A stretch of DNA of 26,277 nt from Gemmatimonadota bacterium (lineage in GTDB: Bacteria > Latescibacterota > UBA2968 > UBA8231), in NCBI GenBank assembly GCA_002712305.1, contig PATE01000036.1:1-26277 (forward strand), read 5' to 3'. A program made the position numbers and the translations under genes. Below are positions 3,672 through 25,603 of this stretch, piece by piece. The notes beneath the pieces were generated by a model. That model saw nothing but the letters and a program-made list of their open reading frames with translations. It had not been told where the DNA came from and did not search any database. The stretch's first letter is position 1; every line of letters starts with the position of its first letter.

Positions 3672-4862
3672 ATGAAGATCACCGACCTGAAGTGCGCCGT
3701 CATCGGCTCCAATCCCGTCGTGCGCATCACCACCGATGCGGGCATCGATGGATACGGACAGGCCGAGAACAGCAAGCGATACCTCAAACCCCACATCATG
3801 TTCTATCGCGATCGCATCATCGGGCAGGACCCACGTGACGTGGAGCGGGTGATGCTGGGCATCCGCCGACTCGGCAGTTTCAAACCCTGGGGTGCAGCAG
3901 TCAGCGCCATCGAAATCGCCTTGTGGGATATCGCCGGAAAGGCGGCGGGCGTCCCGGTGTATCGATTGTTAGGCGGCAAGGTGCGGGATCGGGTGCGCGT
4001 CTACAATGGGGGCGTCCGTTTTCCCATGGAGGGCGACTCGCCGGCCGCCTACGCCGAAAACATGGCGCAGATGAAGGAATCACCTGAAGGCTTCTCCATC
4101 ATCAAGCAGGGCGTCGCCTTTCACAGCGGCATGCCGAGGGATGTGGACGGCTTCTACTATGGGGACCCCTCGGACGGTCACCTGCATCTGAATCGCGGCG
4201 CCCTGACAGAGAAGGGGATGAACTACCTCGTCGAACGCATCAGGGCCATGAAAGAGGTCTGCGGAGAAGAGGTCGGTCTCGCCCTCGATTGTGGTCCGGG
4301 GATGATGGTTCAGGATGCCAAGAGACTCGCGCAGGCGGTGGAGCCGTTGAATGTGGCATGGCTCGAGGACATGATCACCGGCGACTACATCCCCTACGTG
4401 CAGGCTGATCTCTATCGCGAGGTCACCCAGAGTACGACGACGCCCGTTCATACGGGTGAGCAGATCTATCTGCGGCAGAATTTCACCGATCTGATCGAGA
4501 AGCGAGCCGTCGACATCGTCGGTCCGGACCCCTGCGATATCGGGGGTATCGCTGAATTGAAGTGGGTTGCCGAGTATGCTGATCTGCACGGCATTCTCAT
4601 GGCCCCCCACGGTGTCATCGACGGCATCTTCGGGCTGGCGGCCCTCGTCAACGTCTGCGCCACCATGCCGGCCAACTTTCTGGCCTTCGAGTACACGACT
4701 GCCAGACCCGAGTGGTGGTACGACATCGTCGATGGGTTGCCCGATCCCATTGTAACCGACAGTCACATCGACGTATGGGACCGACCCGGCCTGGGCGTGG
4801 AGTTCCGGGTGGAGGCAGCGAAGAAGTACCTGAATGAGGACGAGAAGGACTTCTTCGACTAA
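3672..4862 (+). CDS. Enolase-superfamily (mandelate racemase/muconate lactonizing-type) enzyme
   Basis: A 396-residue protein with the two-domain family layout: an N-terminal capping domain (about residues 1-120, opening MKITDLKCAV) and a TIM-like barrel. Predicted metal ligands are D206 (in ALDCGPG), E232 (in LEDM) and E263 (in TGEQ). The acid/base dyad is D286 and H313 (in APHGVIDG), 27 residues apart as in acid-sugar dehydratases. K145 (in IIKQG) lies at the second-strand base position. Unlike the enzyme at 601 it has glycine, not histidine, two residues after the first ligand, so the two are not simple duplicates and probably act on different substrates. It is the last gene of the plus operon. 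Its stop lies 9 nt from the convergent stop of the C-N hydrolase, leaving almost no room for a terminator. Substrate unknown. Confidence 0.88.
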   Translation: MKITDLKCAVIGSNPVVRITTDAGIDGYGQAENSKRYLKPHIMFYRDRIIGQDPRDVERVMLGIRRLGSFKPWGAAVSAIEIALWDIAGKAAGVPVYRLLGGKVRDRVRVYNGGVRFPMEGDSPAAYAENMAQMKESPEGFSIIKQGVAFHSGMPRDVDGFYYGDPSDGHLHLNRGALTEKGMNYLVERIRAMKEVCGEEVGLALDCGPGMMVQDAKRLAQAVEPLNVAWLEDMITGDYIPYVQADLYREVTQSTTTPVHTGEQIYLRQNFTDLIEKRAVDIVGPDPCDIGGIAELKWVAEYADLHGILMAPHGVIDGIFGLAALVNVCATMPANFLAFEYTTARPEWWYDIVDGLPDPIVTDSHIDVWDRPGLGVEFRVEAAKKYLNEDEKDFFD

Positions 4863-13308: not shown

Positions 13309-14490
13309 ATGTCCAGTACGATCACTTCTGTCACCGTCACCGAATTCGAATTCACCGTCGACAACATCGGCCTGGAACAGGCCGCCGCCGGTGTGGGGAA
13401 CATGGCCTACGTGAAGGGGGGGAAGTTTCCCGCGCGACGGTTTGCTGTCCGAATCTCTACGAGCGATGGTGCCACTGGAGAGTATGTGGCCCACTGGGTC
13501 GGTACCCCGGCCTCGTTCGCCCAGGTCTGCATGCTGTCGCCCTTGCTGGTTGGACGCGATGCGGATCAGCGCGAGAAGACCTACGACGATCTCAAGCGTG
13601 AACTGCGCGCCTACGACCACATGGGTCACGGCGTGCTGGACAATGCCCTGTGGGATCTGGCAGGAAAGAAGCAGGGCGTTTCGGTGGCCACCCTCCTGGG
13701 AGGGTTCAAGGACCGCCTGCCCACCTACGCCAGTACCTATCACGGACAGGAATCACCGGGCGGTCTCGATACGCCGGAGGCCTTTGCCGACTATGCACAG
13801 CAGTGCAAGGAACAGGGGTTCCACGGCTTCAAGATTCACGGTTGGAACAACGGCGACGTGGCCCGTGAGGTGCGCAATGTGCTGGGCGTGCGCGAGCGAG
13901 TCGGTGACGACTGGCGCCTGATGGTCGATCCCGCCTGCCAGCTGCGTACCTGGATGGATGCGCTTGCCGTGGGCGAGGCGTGCGACGAGGCAGGTTACTT
14001 CTGGTACGAGGACCCCTATCGCGACACCGGTGTGTCGGCCTATGGGCACCAGCGTCTGCGGGAGAAGATCAAGACACCGCTGCTGGTGAGTGAACACGTG
14101 CGGGGGCTGGAGCAGAAAGCCTCCTTTCTGCTCGGCGGCGGTTGTGACATGATTCACGCCGACCCCGAATACGACATGGGCATCACGGGCGTGATGAAGA
14201 TCGCCCACTTCTGCGAGGGCCTGGGGCTCGATTTGCAGCTCCACGCGTGTGGGCCAGCACATCGGGCATGCAATTCGGCCATTCGCAATACCCACATGTA
14301 TGAGATGGCCCTCATGTGTCCGGGCATGCCCAATATCGTTCCGCCTGTGTACACGTGTGGCTACTCCGATCAGCCGGAGGATCTCGGCAGCGACGGCTGC
14401 GTCCCCGTGCCAGATGGCCCCGGACTCGGCGTCACGTATGACTGGGATTTCATCGAGGCCCACAAGACGCAGCACGTCGTCTTCGACTAG
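13309..14490 (+). CDS. Enolase-superfamily (mandelate racemase-type) enzyme
   Basis: A 393-residue third enolase-superfamily protein. Metal ligands are D207 (in MVDPAC), E234 (in WYEDP) and E262 (in VSEHVRG). The dyad is D285 and H312 (in LQLHACGPA), 27 residues apart as in the other two copies. On the second barrel strand it carries K175-I-H177, a KxH variant of the KxK/KxH motif, so both faces of the active site may hold bases. That would allow epimerisation or dehydration. The start ATG at 13309 is preceded by AGAGG 9 nt upstream. It is the last gene of the lyase operon, 34 nt after the propeller gene. Its motifs differ from those at 601 and 3672, suggesting a separate substrate. Substrate unknown. 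Confidence 0.87.
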   Translation: MSSTITSVTVTEFEFTVDNIGLEQAAAGVGNMAYVKGGKFPARRFAVRISTSDGATGEYVAHWVGTPASFAQVCMLSPLLVGRDADQREKTYDDLKRELRAYDHMGHGVLDNALWDLAGKKQGVSVATLLGGFKDRLPTYASTYHGQESPGGLDTPEAFADYAQQCKEQGFHGFKIHGWNNGDVAREVRNVLGVRERVGDDWRLMVDPACQLRTWMDALAVGEACDEAGYFWYEDPYRDTGVSAYGHQRLREKIKTPLLVSEHVRGLEQKASFLLGGGCDMIHADPEYDMGITGVMKIAHFCEGLGLDLQLHACGPAHRACNSAIRNTHMYEMALMCPGMPNIVPPVYTCGYSDQPEDLGSDGCVPVPDGPGLGVTYDWDFIEAHKTQHVVFD

Positions 14491-19344: not shown

Positions 19345-19629
19345 GAGGATCCTTGCTCCGTCGTTACGGAAGGAATGGCTGGTCGGATGATTGGCACACC
19401 GGATTCTGCATCATTCACTTGCGATTCGTGCCAAATCGAGGTTGTGAGATAAAGGGGCCACCACAAGACGGTCAAGGTTCGTCCTGCTTGTTGCTGGTCA
19501 TTCGACGTGCTAGCTTTCCCATGCGAATCCCGGTGCCGTGTCGGGCGTCAAATCGACGAGCAACAACCACACCGCCGAAACGGCACCCACTTGCGCAGTC
19601 TGGCCATTCAACCCAATAGGAACCTGCTC
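19345..19629. promoter_or_regulatory. Divergent intergenic region upstream of the porZ-like gene
   Basis: This 285 bp gap lies between two divergent starts. It holds an imperfect inverted repeat with 14-nt arms (12 of 14 matching) at 19486-19499 (GCTTGTTGCTGGTC) and 19555-19568 (GACGAGCAACAACC), with a 55-nt loop. The porZ frame stays open back to a GTG at 19507, but that stretch does not look like protein. I found no convincing -35/-10 pair. Confidence 0.35.
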
Positions 19630-21912
19630 TTGCGTCAGACCGCAGCCCACAGAATCGCGTTCGTTCCACGAAGTTTTCTGCGTACACATTGGGTTGCCCT
19701 CTTCGTTGGCTTTTGTCTCGGATTGCTGGTTACGGAAGCAGATGCGCAGGCCGGCGCATGGCGAGCGCTTACGAGCATGCGACCCGTCAACGCCCTGGCC
19801 GTTGTGGAAGGTGCCGTCTTCGGGGCCACACCAGGGGGCGTACTGCGCTACGATCCAGTGAGCGAAACGTACAGACGCTTCACCCGGGCCGATGGGCTGG
19901 ATGCCAATGTCGTTCTGTCCGTGAGCGCAGATTCGTCGGGCAGCCTGTGGTTTGGAACCGATGGGGAAGGGCTCCGCCGGCTGCGCCTTGCCGACGAACG
20001 ATTCGTGTCCACTCAAGGCGCACTGCAGGGCCTCAAGATCAACGCGATCGCAGTCAACGACGACAGACTCTTCGTGGGAACTGACGTTGGCGTCAGCGTC
20101 TATCTCGTGGCCAGCGGCCGGGTCAAGGAGACCTATCGCCAGCTCGGGAGTTTTCAGAAGGACACGGAGGTGCGAGCACTGGCCATTCACGAAGGTCAGC
20201 TCTTTGCGGCCACGAGCGATGGGATTGCACGCGCGCCGCTGCAGGCGACGAATCTACAGGATCCAGACAGTTGGGTGTCGACGCGCCTCATGGGGGACAG
20301 TTCGAGTCTCATCGTCCACAATGACACGCTTCTCAGTGGTGGAGCCTTCGCTGCATGGCGCTTCGACGACAGCCAGTCGCGCTGGCGCTCCTTCGCTGTC
20401 CTCGGCCAGGTAGAAGGCCTGGCCAGCTTCGGTAGTCCTGCGAGACTCGTGGCCAACGTCGACGGATCTCTGCAGGAGCGCATGTCAGATGAGACCTGGG
20501 AACCTCTCGAGTTCACCGGCGAGGTTCATTCGATTTTTGCTTCGGCTGACGAACTGTGGATTGGCACCGATACCGGATTGGCCGCCGTGGGACGACCTGC
20601 CCCGTCCCCTCTGCGGGATGCGCCCAGCAACGCGTTCTTCGACGTCGAAACCGGCGGAGATGGTGAACTATGGGTCGCCAGCACAGCCAGTGACAGGGAT
20701 GGTGTACCGGCCGGTGTCTTTCGCTTCGATGGCGACGGTTGGGAAGTCCACAACCGAACTCAGGGTCTGCCCTCCGATTTTGCCGTGGGGATCGCACAGG
20801 ATCCTTCACAGAACCTGTGGGTCACCACGTGGGGCTGGGGGATTGCTGTCCTCGACGACAACGAGGTCTGGCAACGATTCGATCATCGTAACTCTGCGCT
20901 TCGTGGAATCACGCAGCCGAGTGTTCCGGAGTTCGTAGTGGTCAGTGATATCCAGCCGGACGCGCAGGGGGCCATGTGGATGACGAATGTCCAGGCCGGT
21001 CTTGTGGTGATGGAGGGTTTTCCTGACGTCAGGAGTTTCCTGCACGATCTGGATGCACTCGGGCTTCCGGCGGCTGCGCACCTGAGTCGGGTTGCCATCG
21101 GACCGGACGCCCGCAAGTGGGTGGCGACGGCAACGGAAGGCTTCGTGTACTTCGACGACGGCGGTGACCCCTTCACAGCGGGCGTTGCCTCCGCGGTGGT
21201 CAGCCCCGCGACTGAGCCCCGGCTGCGCAGCGCCAACATTACTGCCATCGCTGTTTCTGCTGCCAATGTCGTCTGGGTGGGGACTGACAACGGACTCTAC
21301 CGACTCACATGGGCCTACAATTCCAGTACCGGGCGGCTCACATTTCCAACCTGGCGTGAGTATCGACTGGAGAATGGGCTCAACTCCAATTTCATTACAT
21401 CCATTGCCTTTGATGATCAGGGAAATGTCTGGGTTGGGACTCGGGCGGGGCTCTCCTGGCTCAGGACGACGGGGACGCTTGTCACCACCTTCACAACGGA
21501 CAACAGTGGCCTGATCCACGACCGCGTCCAATCGGTCACCTATGAAGTGGCGAATGGTTCGCTATGGATTGGCACTTTCGGCGGCCTCGGGCAGTTGCAG
21601 GTGGGGCTCAATCTCGCTGGCACCGATGAGCAAGCTGGCCCTGTCCTGTACCCAAATCCCTTCGTCATCGACGATGTTGAGAATTCGCGACTGACGCTGG
21701 CTGGTCTGCCACTCGACTCAGAGGTGACGCTGTACACACTGACTGGACAGTTGGTTCGTTTTCTGGAGCCCGAGCAGGGAGCGACGGTGATCGCCTGGGA
21801 CGGCACCGATCAAGACGGAAAGATCGTCGGACCGGGCATCTATTTTTATCGGGCTACGACGCGTGACGGGCGCTCGCTTCGAGGCAAGTTTGCGATTGTT
21901 CGTGCGCGCTGA
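19630..21912 (+). CDS. porZ: PorZ-like T9SS surface protein: two beta-propellers with C-terminal sorting-type domain
   Basis: The TTG at 19630 is chosen as start: AGGAA lies at 19618-19622 with a 7-nt spacer, and it places a Sec signal correctly (RSFLR, hydrophobic WVALFVGFCLGLLV, then TEADAQA). The upstream open frame has no ATG. The mature protein opens with WRALTSMRPVNAL and carries Reg_prop-type propeller repeats: LWFGTDGEG at 106, LWIGTDTG at 309, LWVTTWGWG at 396, VWVGTDNG at 548, VWVGTRAG at 600 and LWIGTFGG at 645. The last 90 residues begin at YPNPF (674-678) and have the strand pattern of a T9SS type A/FlgD-like C-terminal domain. At 760 residues the architecture matches PorZ, which binds A-LPS at the surface and works with PorU in Bacteroidetes. 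It overlaps the PorU-like gene. The symbol rests on architecture plus neighbour. Confidence 0.72.
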   Translation: MRQTAAHRIAFVPRSFLRTHWVALFVGFCLGLLVTEADAQAGAWRALTSMRPVNALAVVEGAVFGATPGGVLRYDPVSETYRRFTRADGLDANVVLSVSADSSGSLWFGTDGEGLRRLRLADERFVSTQGALQGLKINAIAVNDDRLFVGTDVGVSVYLVASGRVKETYRQLGSFQKDTEVRALAIHEGQLFAATSDGIARAPLQATNLQDPDSWVSTRLMGDSSSLIVHNDTLLSGGAFAAWRFDDSQSRWRSFAVLGQVEGLASFGSPARLVANVDGSLQERMSDETWEPLEFTGEVHSIFASADELWIGTDTGLAAVGRPAPSPLRDAPSNAFFDVETGGDGELWVASTASDRDGVPAGVFRFDGDGWEVHNRTQGLPSDFAVGIAQDPSQNLWVTTWGWGIAVLDDNEVWQRFDHRNSALRGITQPSVPEFVVVSDIQPDAQGAMWMTNVQAGLVVMEGFPDVRSFLHDLDALGLPAAAHLSRVAIGPDARKWVATATEGFVYFDDGGDPFTAGVASAVVSPATEPRLRSANITAIAVSAANVVWVGTDNGLYRLTWAYNSSTGRLTFPTWREYRLENGLNSNFITSIAFDDQGNVWVGTRAGLSWLRTTGTLVTTFTTDNSGLIHDRVQSVTYEVANGSLWIGTFGGLGQLQVGLNLAGTDEQAGPVLYPNPFVIDDVENSRLTLAGLPLDSEVTLYTLTGQLVRFLEPEQGATVIAWDGTDQDGKIVGPGIYFYRATTRDGRSLRGKFAIVRAR

Positions 21913-24900
21913 CAGACTTCGCACTCTCGCGACGACGGCGTTCGTGCTGTGGGCAGCCGCGGCGGATTCGATCCCGCCATCCGCCCAGATGTCGGTCCAG
22001 GTGCCGGCCGACCGGGTTCCGGGGATCCAGGCTCCGGCAGTCAAGGTTATTGGGGAGGGGGCGGGGTTCGTCCGCCTCGCACGCACGACGGATCGTCCCG
22101 ACGCGACCGGTCATCGTGCCCTCGTAGGAATTCCCCTCAGCGGCCTACTGAGCCTGCAGATCGCAGACGCACCCGCTTCACAGCAGGCCGCAGCGCGACT
22201 TGGGCGGGTCGGCTTTTTTCGAGACCAGCGTGTAGTGGAAGTCCTGTTCACACCACGTGCCGAGGCGAATTCGGCTCCCGTCGTTGTGGACCTCTCCTTC
22301 GACGCGACGACGAAACGGGTTCCCATCCCGCGCGCTTCCTTCTACGAAGACCTGACGTATCGAGGTGCCATCCTCAACCACGATCAGTCACGGATCTGGA
22401 GACGCGGACCTCAGGCTGCTAAGCGTGCCGGTTCATCCCAGGATTCCGGACTCGTAGGGCCCGCTTTCAAGGTGACCATACAGAAGGAGGGGATCTACCG
22501 TCTCACAGGTGAGGAACTGATGGCGGCGGGAGCGCCAGCCAGCATCCGCGTGTCCTCGATTGCCCTCTACAACGGAGGCGGTCAGCGGTTGTCCGAAGTG
22601 GGCGAGCCGGCGGTGCAGTTGCGGCCTGTGAGTTTCCATCTCGAAGATGGCGGCGACGGCCTGTTGGACGCCGATGACCATCTTCTGTTTTACGGGCAGT
22701 CCACCGATCGCTGGATTGCCGATCCTGATGGGGAGCGACGTTTCCTCACGAACCCCTTCACCGGATCGAATGTGTATTGGGTTTCCATCGGTGCAGGGGT
22801 GCCGACCGATTCAGAGACGATCGACGGGTCCCTGGTTGGCGACCCCGCAATACACACGACCTACACGGTACGCGAACACTACGAACTGCAGCGGGCACCA
22901 CTGAACATCGCGCCAGGGAGTATTCCTTCGGGGAAGGAGTGGTACTGGGAACTGCTGCAGCCTGGTGTGCCGCAGACGCTCGATGTCTCCCTCTCGGACG
23001 CTGCGTCGACCGCCGTGACCTTGCGAGTCGGAGTCACCACACATGCCCTTGGCGACGCGAGGGTACAGCTGTTGTGGGATACGAGGGTTGTGGCCACAAG
23101 TTCGCTGCCGCGTGATGAACTGACCGTCCTGCAGGACACGATCGAAGTCGAGGGCGGGGCAGGGCAGCTGAAGGTACGCGCTCTGGGGGACAGCACGGCT
23201 TTCCTCGACTGGTACGAAGTCGAGTACGAACGCCATCTGTCTACCGTCGATGGAATGCTGATCTTCGATGGCGCGTCGGCAGATCGGGCCGCCTATGCGC
23301 TGACCGGATTCGATACGGCACCGAGACTCTTCGACGTCTCCGACGAGGGGCTCACACAGATCACAGGGGCGTCGTTCGACGAGACCGCTGGGCAGCTCTC
23401 CTTCCAGGCGGCGGCGACTGACGGGATGCGGCGCTATGCCGCTGTGATCGACTCCTCATTGATGACCGTTTCCAACGTGCAAGCTCGGTCCCTGGGTGAA
23501 CTGAGGGGGTCCGGTGGTGCCGACTACGTTGTGATCACCCACGCAGACTTCAGCAGCGCTGCACAGGATCTCGCCGATTGGCGAGCCACCGACGACCGCC
23601 ATGCACCGGCTCCCTCGGTGGCGTTGATCGATGTCGCCCAGATCTACGACGACTTCAGCGGTGGTCTGTTCGACCCCACCGCGATTCGCGATTTCCTCCG
23701 CCACGCCCACCAACACTGGAGTCCCGCTCCAAGTTTCGTGGTCCTGTTTGGCGATGGCACCTACGACTATCGAAATCACTCCGGCACAAGTCCCGGCAAC
23801 TGGATCCCGCCCTACGAAGATGGTGTGAGCACGTACGATGAGTGGTACACCTACGTCTCGGGTGATGACACCCTTCCTGACATGGCCATCGGCCGTCTCT
23901 CGGTGCAGACCGCCGACGAGGCTCAGACCGTCGTGGACAAGTTGATCGACTACGATCGAACGCCAGAGCTTGGCCCCTGGCAGGGGCGGATCCTGCTGGT
24001 GGCGGACGACACGTTCAACGCCGATGAGCCCCACCTGATCGAAACGATGTTTACCCACGACAGTGAAGACCTGGCGGCTCAATTCATGCCCCCGGGACTG
24101 GATCTTGAAAAACTCTACCTGGTGGAATTCCCTTTCACGGGTCGCTTCAAGCCGACGGCTCGCGACGCCTTCGTCCGGGCCTTCAACGACGGCGCTGTAC
24201 TTCTTACGTGGGTCGGTCACGGCAACTCACGTGTTTTCGCGCACGAACACATCTTCGTATTGCCCACCGATCTGCAGGCGATCGACAATAGCAGGCGATT
24301 GCCCTTCGTCTTCGCCGCAGCCAGCCAGATGGGTGTGTTCGATGATCCAGATCTGGACTCCATGCCGGAAGCTCTCGTCAAGTGGCCCCGAGGCGGGGCG
24401 ATCGGCATGATCGCGGCGTCGCGCATCGGTTTCCACAACAGCAACATGGCCCTTGCCCGCAACTTTCACGCGAGCATGTTCACCAGCGGTCGGCGTTTCG
24501 TACCTGTGGGCCTGGCCCTGCTGGAGGCGAAACTTGCGACGGATGTCTTCCGCGAGAACGAGAGACGATACACCCTATTCGGAGACCCGCTGACGCGACT
24601 TTCAATGCCCGCCCTGGGCATCCGATTGGTCACGGCCGACACACTGCAGGCCCTCGGCGTGGAGCGATTCGAAGGTGAGGTGGTTGGCGACGATGGTGTC
24701 CTTCTGCGCGGATTCAACGGTGAAGCTCGAGTGCAGGTCTTCGATTCGGTCGTGAACCGGCGCGAGCTTCGATCGGGGGAGCCCCTCGTCTACGATCAAC
24801 CTGTGGCAACCCTGTTCCGGGGGGTGGTTCCCGTCGTCGGAGGACGCTTCTCCGGGAGTTTTACCGTGCCGAAGGACATTACCTATCGGGGGGGGCGAGG

Positions 24901-25603
24901 CCGTATCAGCGTCTACGCGTCGGCGGCGCAGGTCGCTGCCTTCGGTTCGGTCGACGGGTTGGTCATGTCAGGCACAGCGCCGGATGCACAGCCCGACACC
25001 GATGGGCCGGATATCTCGATGGGTATCGCCGGCCAGTCCTTCAACTCCGGTGACTTTGTGCCTTCGAAGATTCGCCTTCACGTCACGATCGAGGACGTGA
25101 GTGGGATCAATATCGCTGGAGACGTGGGCCATGAGATCGTGCTCATCGTTGACGGTGATCGTCAGGACGTGACCTCCAAGTTCCAATCTGGTGAGGACTA
25201 CCGCGTGGGAGGTTTCGCCGTGGATCTACCATCGCTAGAGGAGGGGCGGCACGATATCTCCATCGAAGCATGGGATACGCACAACAACTGGTCAGAGAAA
25301 CGCGTGACGGTCCAGGTCTCTGCGGCGCAGGTGATCGAGGATGCCCTCTTTCATCCCAATCCCACTTCCGGGGCAGGACACTTTTCCTTCGCTCTGTCGG
25401 GGCCGGCGAACGTGAGAATCCGCGTCCACTCGGTGAGTGGCAGATTGGTCGACGAGGTCTCAGCGGCAGGGAATCGCGGGCACAATCAGATTCTTTGGGA
25501 GCCACCGGTTCGGCTCGCTGGCGGCAGCTACCTCTACCGCATCACCGCCATGGGGGATGCAGGAATGGCCACAGCGGACGGCGTCATACAGGTCAAACGG
25601 TGA
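21890..25603 (+). CDS. porU: PorU-like C25-family T9SS protein with Cys-to-Ser at the expected nucleophile
   Basis: A protein of about 1237 residues. The start is uncertain: TTG 21890 has GAGG 5 nt before it, while the frame opens at GTG 21863; either overlaps the PorZ-like gene. A signal-like LATTAFVLWAAAA follows. The N-terminal part has GIYRLTGEELMAAGAP and a later SIALYNGGG, as in PorU N-domains. The C25 region (about 545-900) has LFGDGTYDYRN (619-629), LPDMAIGRL near 665, TWVGHGN with H777, and FDDPDLDSMPEALV. Family members read about ATCEFxxFDDP at the nucleophile; here it is FAAASQMGVFDDP, with S812 (codon AGC) in that place. A sorting-type domain begins near HPNPTSG (1155). In P. gingivalis PorU is the sortase that cleaves cargo C-terminal domains and joins cargo to lipopolysaccharide. 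Whether this copy is active is open. Confidence 0.78.
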   Translation: MRLFVRADRLRTLATTAFVLWAAAADSIPPSAQMSVQVPADRVPGIQAPAVKVIGEGAGFVRLARTTDRPDATGHRALVGIPLSGLLSLQIADAPASQQAAARLGRVGFFRDQRVVEVLFTPRAEANSAPVVVDLSFDATTKRVPIPRASFYEDLTYRGAILNHDQSRIWRRGPQAAKRAGSSQDSGLVGPAFKVTIQKEGIYRLTGEELMAAGAPASIRVSSIALYNGGGQRLSEVGEPAVQLRPVSFHLEDGGDGLLDADDHLLFYGQSTDRWIADPDGERRFLTNPFTGSNVYWVSIGAGVPTDSETIDGSLVGDPAIHTTYTVREHYELQRAPLNIAPGSIPSGKEWYWELLQPGVPQTLDVSLSDAASTAVTLRVGVTTHALGDARVQLLWDTRVVATSSLPRDELTVLQDTIEVEGGAGQLKVRALGDSTAFLDWYEVEYERHLSTVDGMLIFDGASADRAAYALTGFDTAPRLFDVSDEGLTQITGASFDETAGQLSFQAAATDGMRRYAAVIDSSLMTVSNVQARSLGELRGSGGADYVVITHADFSSAAQDLADWRATDDRHAPAPSVALIDVAQIYDDFSGGLFDPTAIRDFLRHAHQHWSPAPSFVVLFGDGTYDYRNHSGTSPGNWIPPYEDGVSTYDEWYTYVSGDDTLPDMAIGRLSVQTADEAQTVVDKLIDYDRTPELGPWQGRILLVADDTFNADEPHLIETMFTHDSEDLAAQFMPPGLDLEKLYLVEFPFTGRFKPTARDAFVRAFNDGAVLLTWVGHGNSRVFAHEHIFVLPTDLQAIDNSRRLPFVFAAASQMGVFDDPDLDSMPEALVKWPRGGAIGMIAASRIGFHNSNMALARNFHASMFTSGRRFVPVGLALLEAKLATDVFRENERRYTLFGDPLTRLSMPALGIRLVTADTLQALGVERFEGEVVGDDGVLLRGFNGEARVQVFDSVVNRRELRSGEPLVYDQPVATLFRGVVPVVGGRFSGSFTVPKDITYRGGRGRISVYASAAQVAAFGSVDGLVMSGTAPDAQPDTDGPDISMGIAGQSFNSGDFVPSKIRLHVTIEDVSGINIAGDVGHEIVLIVDGDRQDVTSKFQSGEDYRVGGFAVDLPSLEEGRHDISIEAWDTHNNWSEKRVTVQVSAAQVIEDALFHPNPTSGAGHFSFALSGPANVRIRVHSVSGRLVDEVSAAGNRGHNQILWEPPVRLAGGSYLYRITAMGDAGMATADGVIQVKR

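Follow-up and report, generated by a model that had tools for sequence, protein, structure and literature searches.

Introduction

PorU, described as a cysteine enzyme, carries out an essential processing step in the type IX secretion system (T9SS). In P. gingivalis the attachment complex consists of PorU, PorV, PorZ and PorQ (PMC5562754, PMC8545088), and A-LPS is delivered to PorU by PorZ (PMC8545088). The C690A variant of P. gingivalis PorU is inactive and secretion-deficient, and the attachment complex is disrupted (PMC5562754, PMC5121618). The Cys therefore matters in this PorU, and this counts against an enzyme that works with Ser. The literature collection that was searched contained no paper on PorU2 in the T9SS and none on the T9SS in Latescibacteria.

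The DNA analysed here (the window) is a stretch of 26,277 nucleotides from contig PATE01000036.1 of assembly GCA_002712305.1 (Gemmatimonadota bacterium; Latescibacterota in GTDB). It encodes a protein that shares with P. gingivalis PorU (PG0026; 6za2; NF033707) full-length homology over the cut-off, the GHG His of C25, the N- and C-terminal domains and the porV/porZ neighbourhood, in a genome with SprA, PorV, PorZ, PorQ and sorting-domain cargo. It differs by a Ser nucleophile, by Thr in place of Asn four residues before the His, by the lack of any Cys, and by its duplication in some genomes. Gingipain R (C25; 1cvr, 4ief) has the same catalytic domain family and His motif, but it carries a Cys nucleophile and is a secreted peptidase, not a component of the T9SS. 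Trypanosoma brucei MCA4 is, like the window protein, a clan CD member with an active-site substitution, and is functional in the cell (PMC6657590). It belongs to an unrelated family and was reported to be an inactive pseudopeptidase, whereas Ser-PorU may be active.

Results

The Window Encodes a PorU with Serine at the Nucleophile Position

The earlier note on this DNA had described a PorU-like homolog, and this assignment is borne out: the whole protein scores 606 bits against the NCBIfam model for PorU (NF033707, cut-off 420), aligns to P. gingivalis PorU 6za2 with an E value of 3.7e-51, and is placed with PorU in the tree. The score against the PorU2 model (NF052324) is 122 bits, below the cut-off of 450. 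The features of the locus are as follows (residue numbers count from the GTG at 21863):

19507..21912, + strand: PorZ-like gene directly upstream, overlapping the porU start (NF052228 210 bits, E 4.8e-62, cut-off of 260 not reached)
21863..25603, + strand: porU orthologue with Ser at the nucleophile position (GTG start, 1246 aa, zero Cys)
23525..24601, + strand: Peptidase_C25 catalytic domain (PF01364 268.8 bits, model 1-374 complete)
24206..24208, + strand: T782, at position -4 from the His (Thr in 28/29 of the Ser clade; almost all Cys C25 proteins of the set have Asn here)
24218..24220, + strand: catalytic His codon CAC, H786, in GHG (TWVGHGN), on the PorU His in the 6za2 alignment
24323..24325, + strand: Ser codon AGC, S821, at the nucleophile position (6za2 alignment, family sequences)
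25355..25549, + strand: T9SS sorting-domain-like C-terminal tail of PorU (TIGR04183, cut-off 23)

In the alignment with 6za2, AAAS-Q-M-G-V-FDDP of the window ORF lies on TATC-D-F-A-N-YD without a gap, so that Ser (AGC at 24323-24325) falls on the Cys nucleophile C690. The replacement of the nucleophilic Cys by Ser was thus described correctly, and the remark that no other Cys is near understated the case, as the count is zero over all 1246 residues. The residues had been named H777 and S812; they are the right ones, but these numbers imply a start 27 bases downstream, and counted from the GTG at 21863 they are H786 and S821. For the PorZ-like gene, the ORF 19507-21912 probably contains the true start. 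The C-terminal tail scores 24.1 bits in a six-frame search and 19.2 bits by hmmscan, so the TIGR04183 cut-off of 23 lies between the two values.

By homology, sequence comparison makes the window protein a PorU; by its active site it has a Ser-His pair and no Cys in the protein, where an active cysteine peptidase of MEROPS C25 has a Cys-His dyad. An annotation as cysteine sortase would need a qualifying comment. AlphaFold2 models were too poor to place S821 relative to H786: residues 195-1246 gave a pLDDT of 52 (about 25 in the catalytic domain), and the catalytic domain alone gave 44, each from six sequences taken from the window and its related loci. Foldseek with the first of these models returned 6za2 as top match at E 3e-45, but with a TM of 0.26.

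Elsewhere in the window, three genes of the mandelate racemase/enolase family lie within 15 kb (436-1758, 3672-4862 and 13309-14490), alongside a TauD-like dioxygenase, nitrilase-like amidases and a heparinase-like protein. This group of genes is likely a catabolic cluster for sugars or polysaccharides.

Serine Is Found in All PorU Sequences of the Family

Four C25 genes lie in the source genome, which comprises 4.77 Mb in 146 contigs and is 90.9% complete. Three of them match PorU: the window gene (contig C57), a gene on C52 and a fragment at a contig edge (C40). All three carry Ser (3/3). The only Cys C25 protein of this genome is PorU2-like, 1.8 kaa long and encoded on C87. The earlier suggestion that a second C25 protein might exist was right; the other copies of PorU itself all have Ser.

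The phylum was represented by 64 genomes: 25 from the family of the window (f1), 22 from families f2-f4 and 17 from f5-f10. PorU over the NF033707 cut-off was present in 22 of the 25 f1 genomes, in some of them duplicated, and the nucleophile was Ser in 30/30 distinct PorU sequences from these 22 genomes. No Cys-PorU was found in the 25 genomes of f1. The three f1 assemblies in which PorU was not detected are 75-87% complete and consist of 690-780 contigs; in one of them the gene that usually comes after porU, namely porV, has its first base at base 11 of the contig, so porU of this assembly may simply be unassembled. The nucleophile was Cys in 16/16 PorU read from the six other families f5-f10, and likewise in the PorU2-like proteins, in P. 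distasonis PorU and in a Herpetosiphon C25 protein. The latter two were the only matches of a plasmid search, a search of viral contigs returned no relative, and the single scan of genome contigs gave close relatives only. None of the 22 genomes of f2-f4 had PorU over the cut-off; where any C25 protein was found there, it was PorU2-like alone. The His of the H786 column is invariant in 83/83 C25 sequences read. As a separate observation, a PorU of f9 (L103 4119-8087) has GHA instead of GHG at the catalytic His and keeps the Cys.

A sequencing error that hides a TGC at 24323-24325 is excluded in practice by the Ser in 30/30 distinct family members, and a shifted motif assignment is contradicted by the relatives, in which Ser lies within the ungapped block ending in FDDP. 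With 30 distinct sequences from 22 genomes agreeing, an error of sequencing or assembly, or a misplaced motif, has a negligible chance of being the explanation. The oddity seen in the single protein is real; what had appeared as one odd protein is a lineage-wide, fixed switch, followed by strong constraint. As judged from these comparisons, Ser-PorU is a real, fixed, lineage-wide variant of PorU.

A PorU2-like Protein Retains the Cysteine

The PorU2-like C25 proteins of the class have about 1.6-2.2 kaa with extra domains, and keep the Cys in SCLNG. They share with the window PorU the C25 domain, an N-terminal module and a C-terminal sorting-like domain, and differ by the Cys, the greater length and a separate clade (100/100). 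Almost all genomes of the class encode such a protein, even where PorU is lacking altogether; in f3 and f4 it occurs without PorU, PorZ and PorQ.

This distribution bears on a serious rival reading, to which we give somewhat less than an even chance: Ser-PorU would be a dead pseudosortase that serves as a scaffold, takes cargo from PorV and docks PorZ and PorQ, while the C-terminal sorting domain (CTD) would be removed by the Cys PorU2-like protein or not at all. The PorU2-like protein is present in the same genomes and could supply the catalysis, and TbMCA4, a clan CD protein with a comparable substitution, has been reviewed as a pseudopeptidase, inactive yet functional (PMC6657590). Against such a division of labour, the PorU2-like protein reaches only 182 bits with the NCBIfam PorU2 model (NF052324, cut-off 450) and may itself be T9SS cargo.

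The Serine Site Arose Once and Is under Constraint

Maximum-likelihood analysis of the catalytic domain unites the Ser proteins in a single clade (100/99). Its sister group is the Cys-PorU of the phylum, and the PorU2-like proteins are separated from it at 100/100. Within the Ser clade, genes of the main subclade (98/93) adjoin porV, and those of the window subclade, which is weakly supported (83/44), adjoin a porZ-like gene where this is readable. The Ser codons of the clade are AGC or AGT and no others, so a single change from TGY to AGY explains all of them; that the Ser codon is one base from TGC had already been pointed out. Tree and codons show, at the level of sequence, a switch from Cys to Ser that took place once, in the ancestor of the family, and has been frozen since.

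The tree length inside the Ser clade is 8.0 substitutions per site. By parsimony the Ser codon changed five times within the clade, each time synonymously between AGC and AGT, with no non-synonymous change; if the codon were neutral, the probability of this outcome would be about 1e-4 to 8e-4 (kappa 2-5). The domain has 17 columns with a Ser majority, and only two are invariant, the nucleophile column being one of them. G785, G787 and N809 are invariant in 29/29 sequences of the clade, and G907 and D908 in 28/28 wherever aligned. In the Ser clade, columns around the active site show stronger conservation than the remaining columns of the domain (0.70 versus 1.10 bits, p 0.006). Together with the nucleophile a second near-universal residue switched, the Asn four residues before the His, which became Thr. 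Clustering of fixed switches at the active site is weak (p 0.01 to 0.12 depending on the threshold), and we therefore do not rely on a claim of concerted remodelling.

The invariance of Ser and His in these sequences shows constraint, not chemistry. It nevertheless speaks against the dead scaffold, since loss of activity should have let the site drift, whereas both residues have stayed strictly the same despite duplications and about 8 substitutions per site.

PorU Is Retained Together with PorZ and PorQ

A check of the genome for type IX genes, proposed in the earlier note, recovered SprA and PorV, which occur across the phylum in the 64-genome set. Together with 46 sorting domains above the cut-off, they indicate that a type IX system is present in the source genome. 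GldM gave no match with TIGR03517 or PF12080 in the 64 genomes; TIGR03517 matched none of the control genomes and PF12080 matched E. coli only, below the cut-off, so that these negative results do not establish a lack of GldM. The T9SS motor of the phylum is either too divergent for these two Bacteroidota GldM models or replaced.

The PorZ-like protein encoded upstream of porU ends in a C-terminal sorting domain (TIGR04183, 27.3 bits). Pairs of porZ and porU recur on C52 and in other f1 genomes, and the source genome carries three genes of each kind, PorZ-like and Ser-PorU. PorZ-like genes are present in 24/25 genomes of f1, 0/22 of f2-f4 and 12/17 of f5-f10. PorQ-grade matches in f1 and f5-f9 mostly have E values of 1e-35 or better; those in f2-f4 are weaker (best E 2e-29), and many coincide with PorV-family matches. 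Throughout the phylum, these PorZ and PorQ matches stay below the NCBIfam cut-offs. PorU, PorZ and PorQ are thus jointly absent in f2-f4, where SprA and PorV are kept, and the loci read in f3 and f4 (L098, L099, L100) have porV and the downstream sorting-domain gene in place and lack porU. The co-absence of the three may represent one event, and is therefore counted once.

Because the porV and porZ neighbours are kept, and PorU, PorZ and PorQ are absent together in f2-f4, we infer from retention and gene order that Ser-PorU is part of a maintained attachment complex with PorV, PorZ and PorQ. For the scaffold reading these data cut both ways. SprA and PorV persist in families without PorU, so secretion in the class need not depend on catalysis by PorU. 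However, Ser-PorU is accompanied by PorZ and PorQ, which are known for presenting A-LPS to PorU, whereas the PorU2-like protein alone is not. That Ser-PorU has been kept along with PorZ and PorQ, and has strictly preserved Ser and His, tilts the balance towards a functional protein.

Cysteine Is Depleted in Ser-PorU

The median number of Cys per 1000 residues is 0.8 in Ser-PorU, 6.4 in Cys-PorU and 1.6 in the PorU2-like proteins, counts that include some upstream frame. Compared to the Cys-PorU of the sister families, depletion is strong in Ser-PorU and less pronounced in the PorU2-like proteins of the class, which retain their catalytic Cys despite the Cys-depleted background. A general loss of Cys from surface proteins is a possible driver of the switch.

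Discussion

Our preferred explanation is that the window encodes the true PorU orthologue of a family related to Latescibacterota. The nucleophile changed once in this family, from Cys to Ser, and has been frozen since, and the protein would still be a subunit of the attachment complex. Ser-PorU would use a Ser-His dyad to cleave the C-terminal sorting domain of exported cargo, with an acyl-ester as intermediate; the processed cargo would be handed to the glycolipid presented by PorZ or to water. We consider the chances about even that Ser-PorU acts as such a Ser-His CTD-processing enzyme, catalysis and its ester route being inferred, and slightly favour this, its hydrolase variant included, over the putative non-catalytic scaffold. 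The wider proposition, a T9SS sortase that naturally switched from Cys to Ser and works family-wide as a Ser-His clan CD transpeptidase or peptidase, possibly driven by a general Cys loss from surface proteins, falls just short of even chances.

An ester intermediate is less prone than a thioester to attack by amines. For this reason an active Ser-PorU could work by hydrolysis and set cargo free instead of anchoring it by transpeptidation, which would be a sub-case of the Ser-His enzyme. This shift follows from chemical reasoning alone and is compatible with all sequence data, but the fact that PorZ and PorQ have been kept speaks for a continuing role of glycolipid delivery, and we regard the shift as improbable.

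Annotation by NF033707 alone ("T9SS sortase") masks a lineage with a different active site. A clade with invariant Ser in which the other parts of the attachment complex are kept tests, in nature, the need for a thiolate in CTD processing, and the sister families without PorU, PorZ and PorQ but with SprA and PorV are the matching natural knockout.
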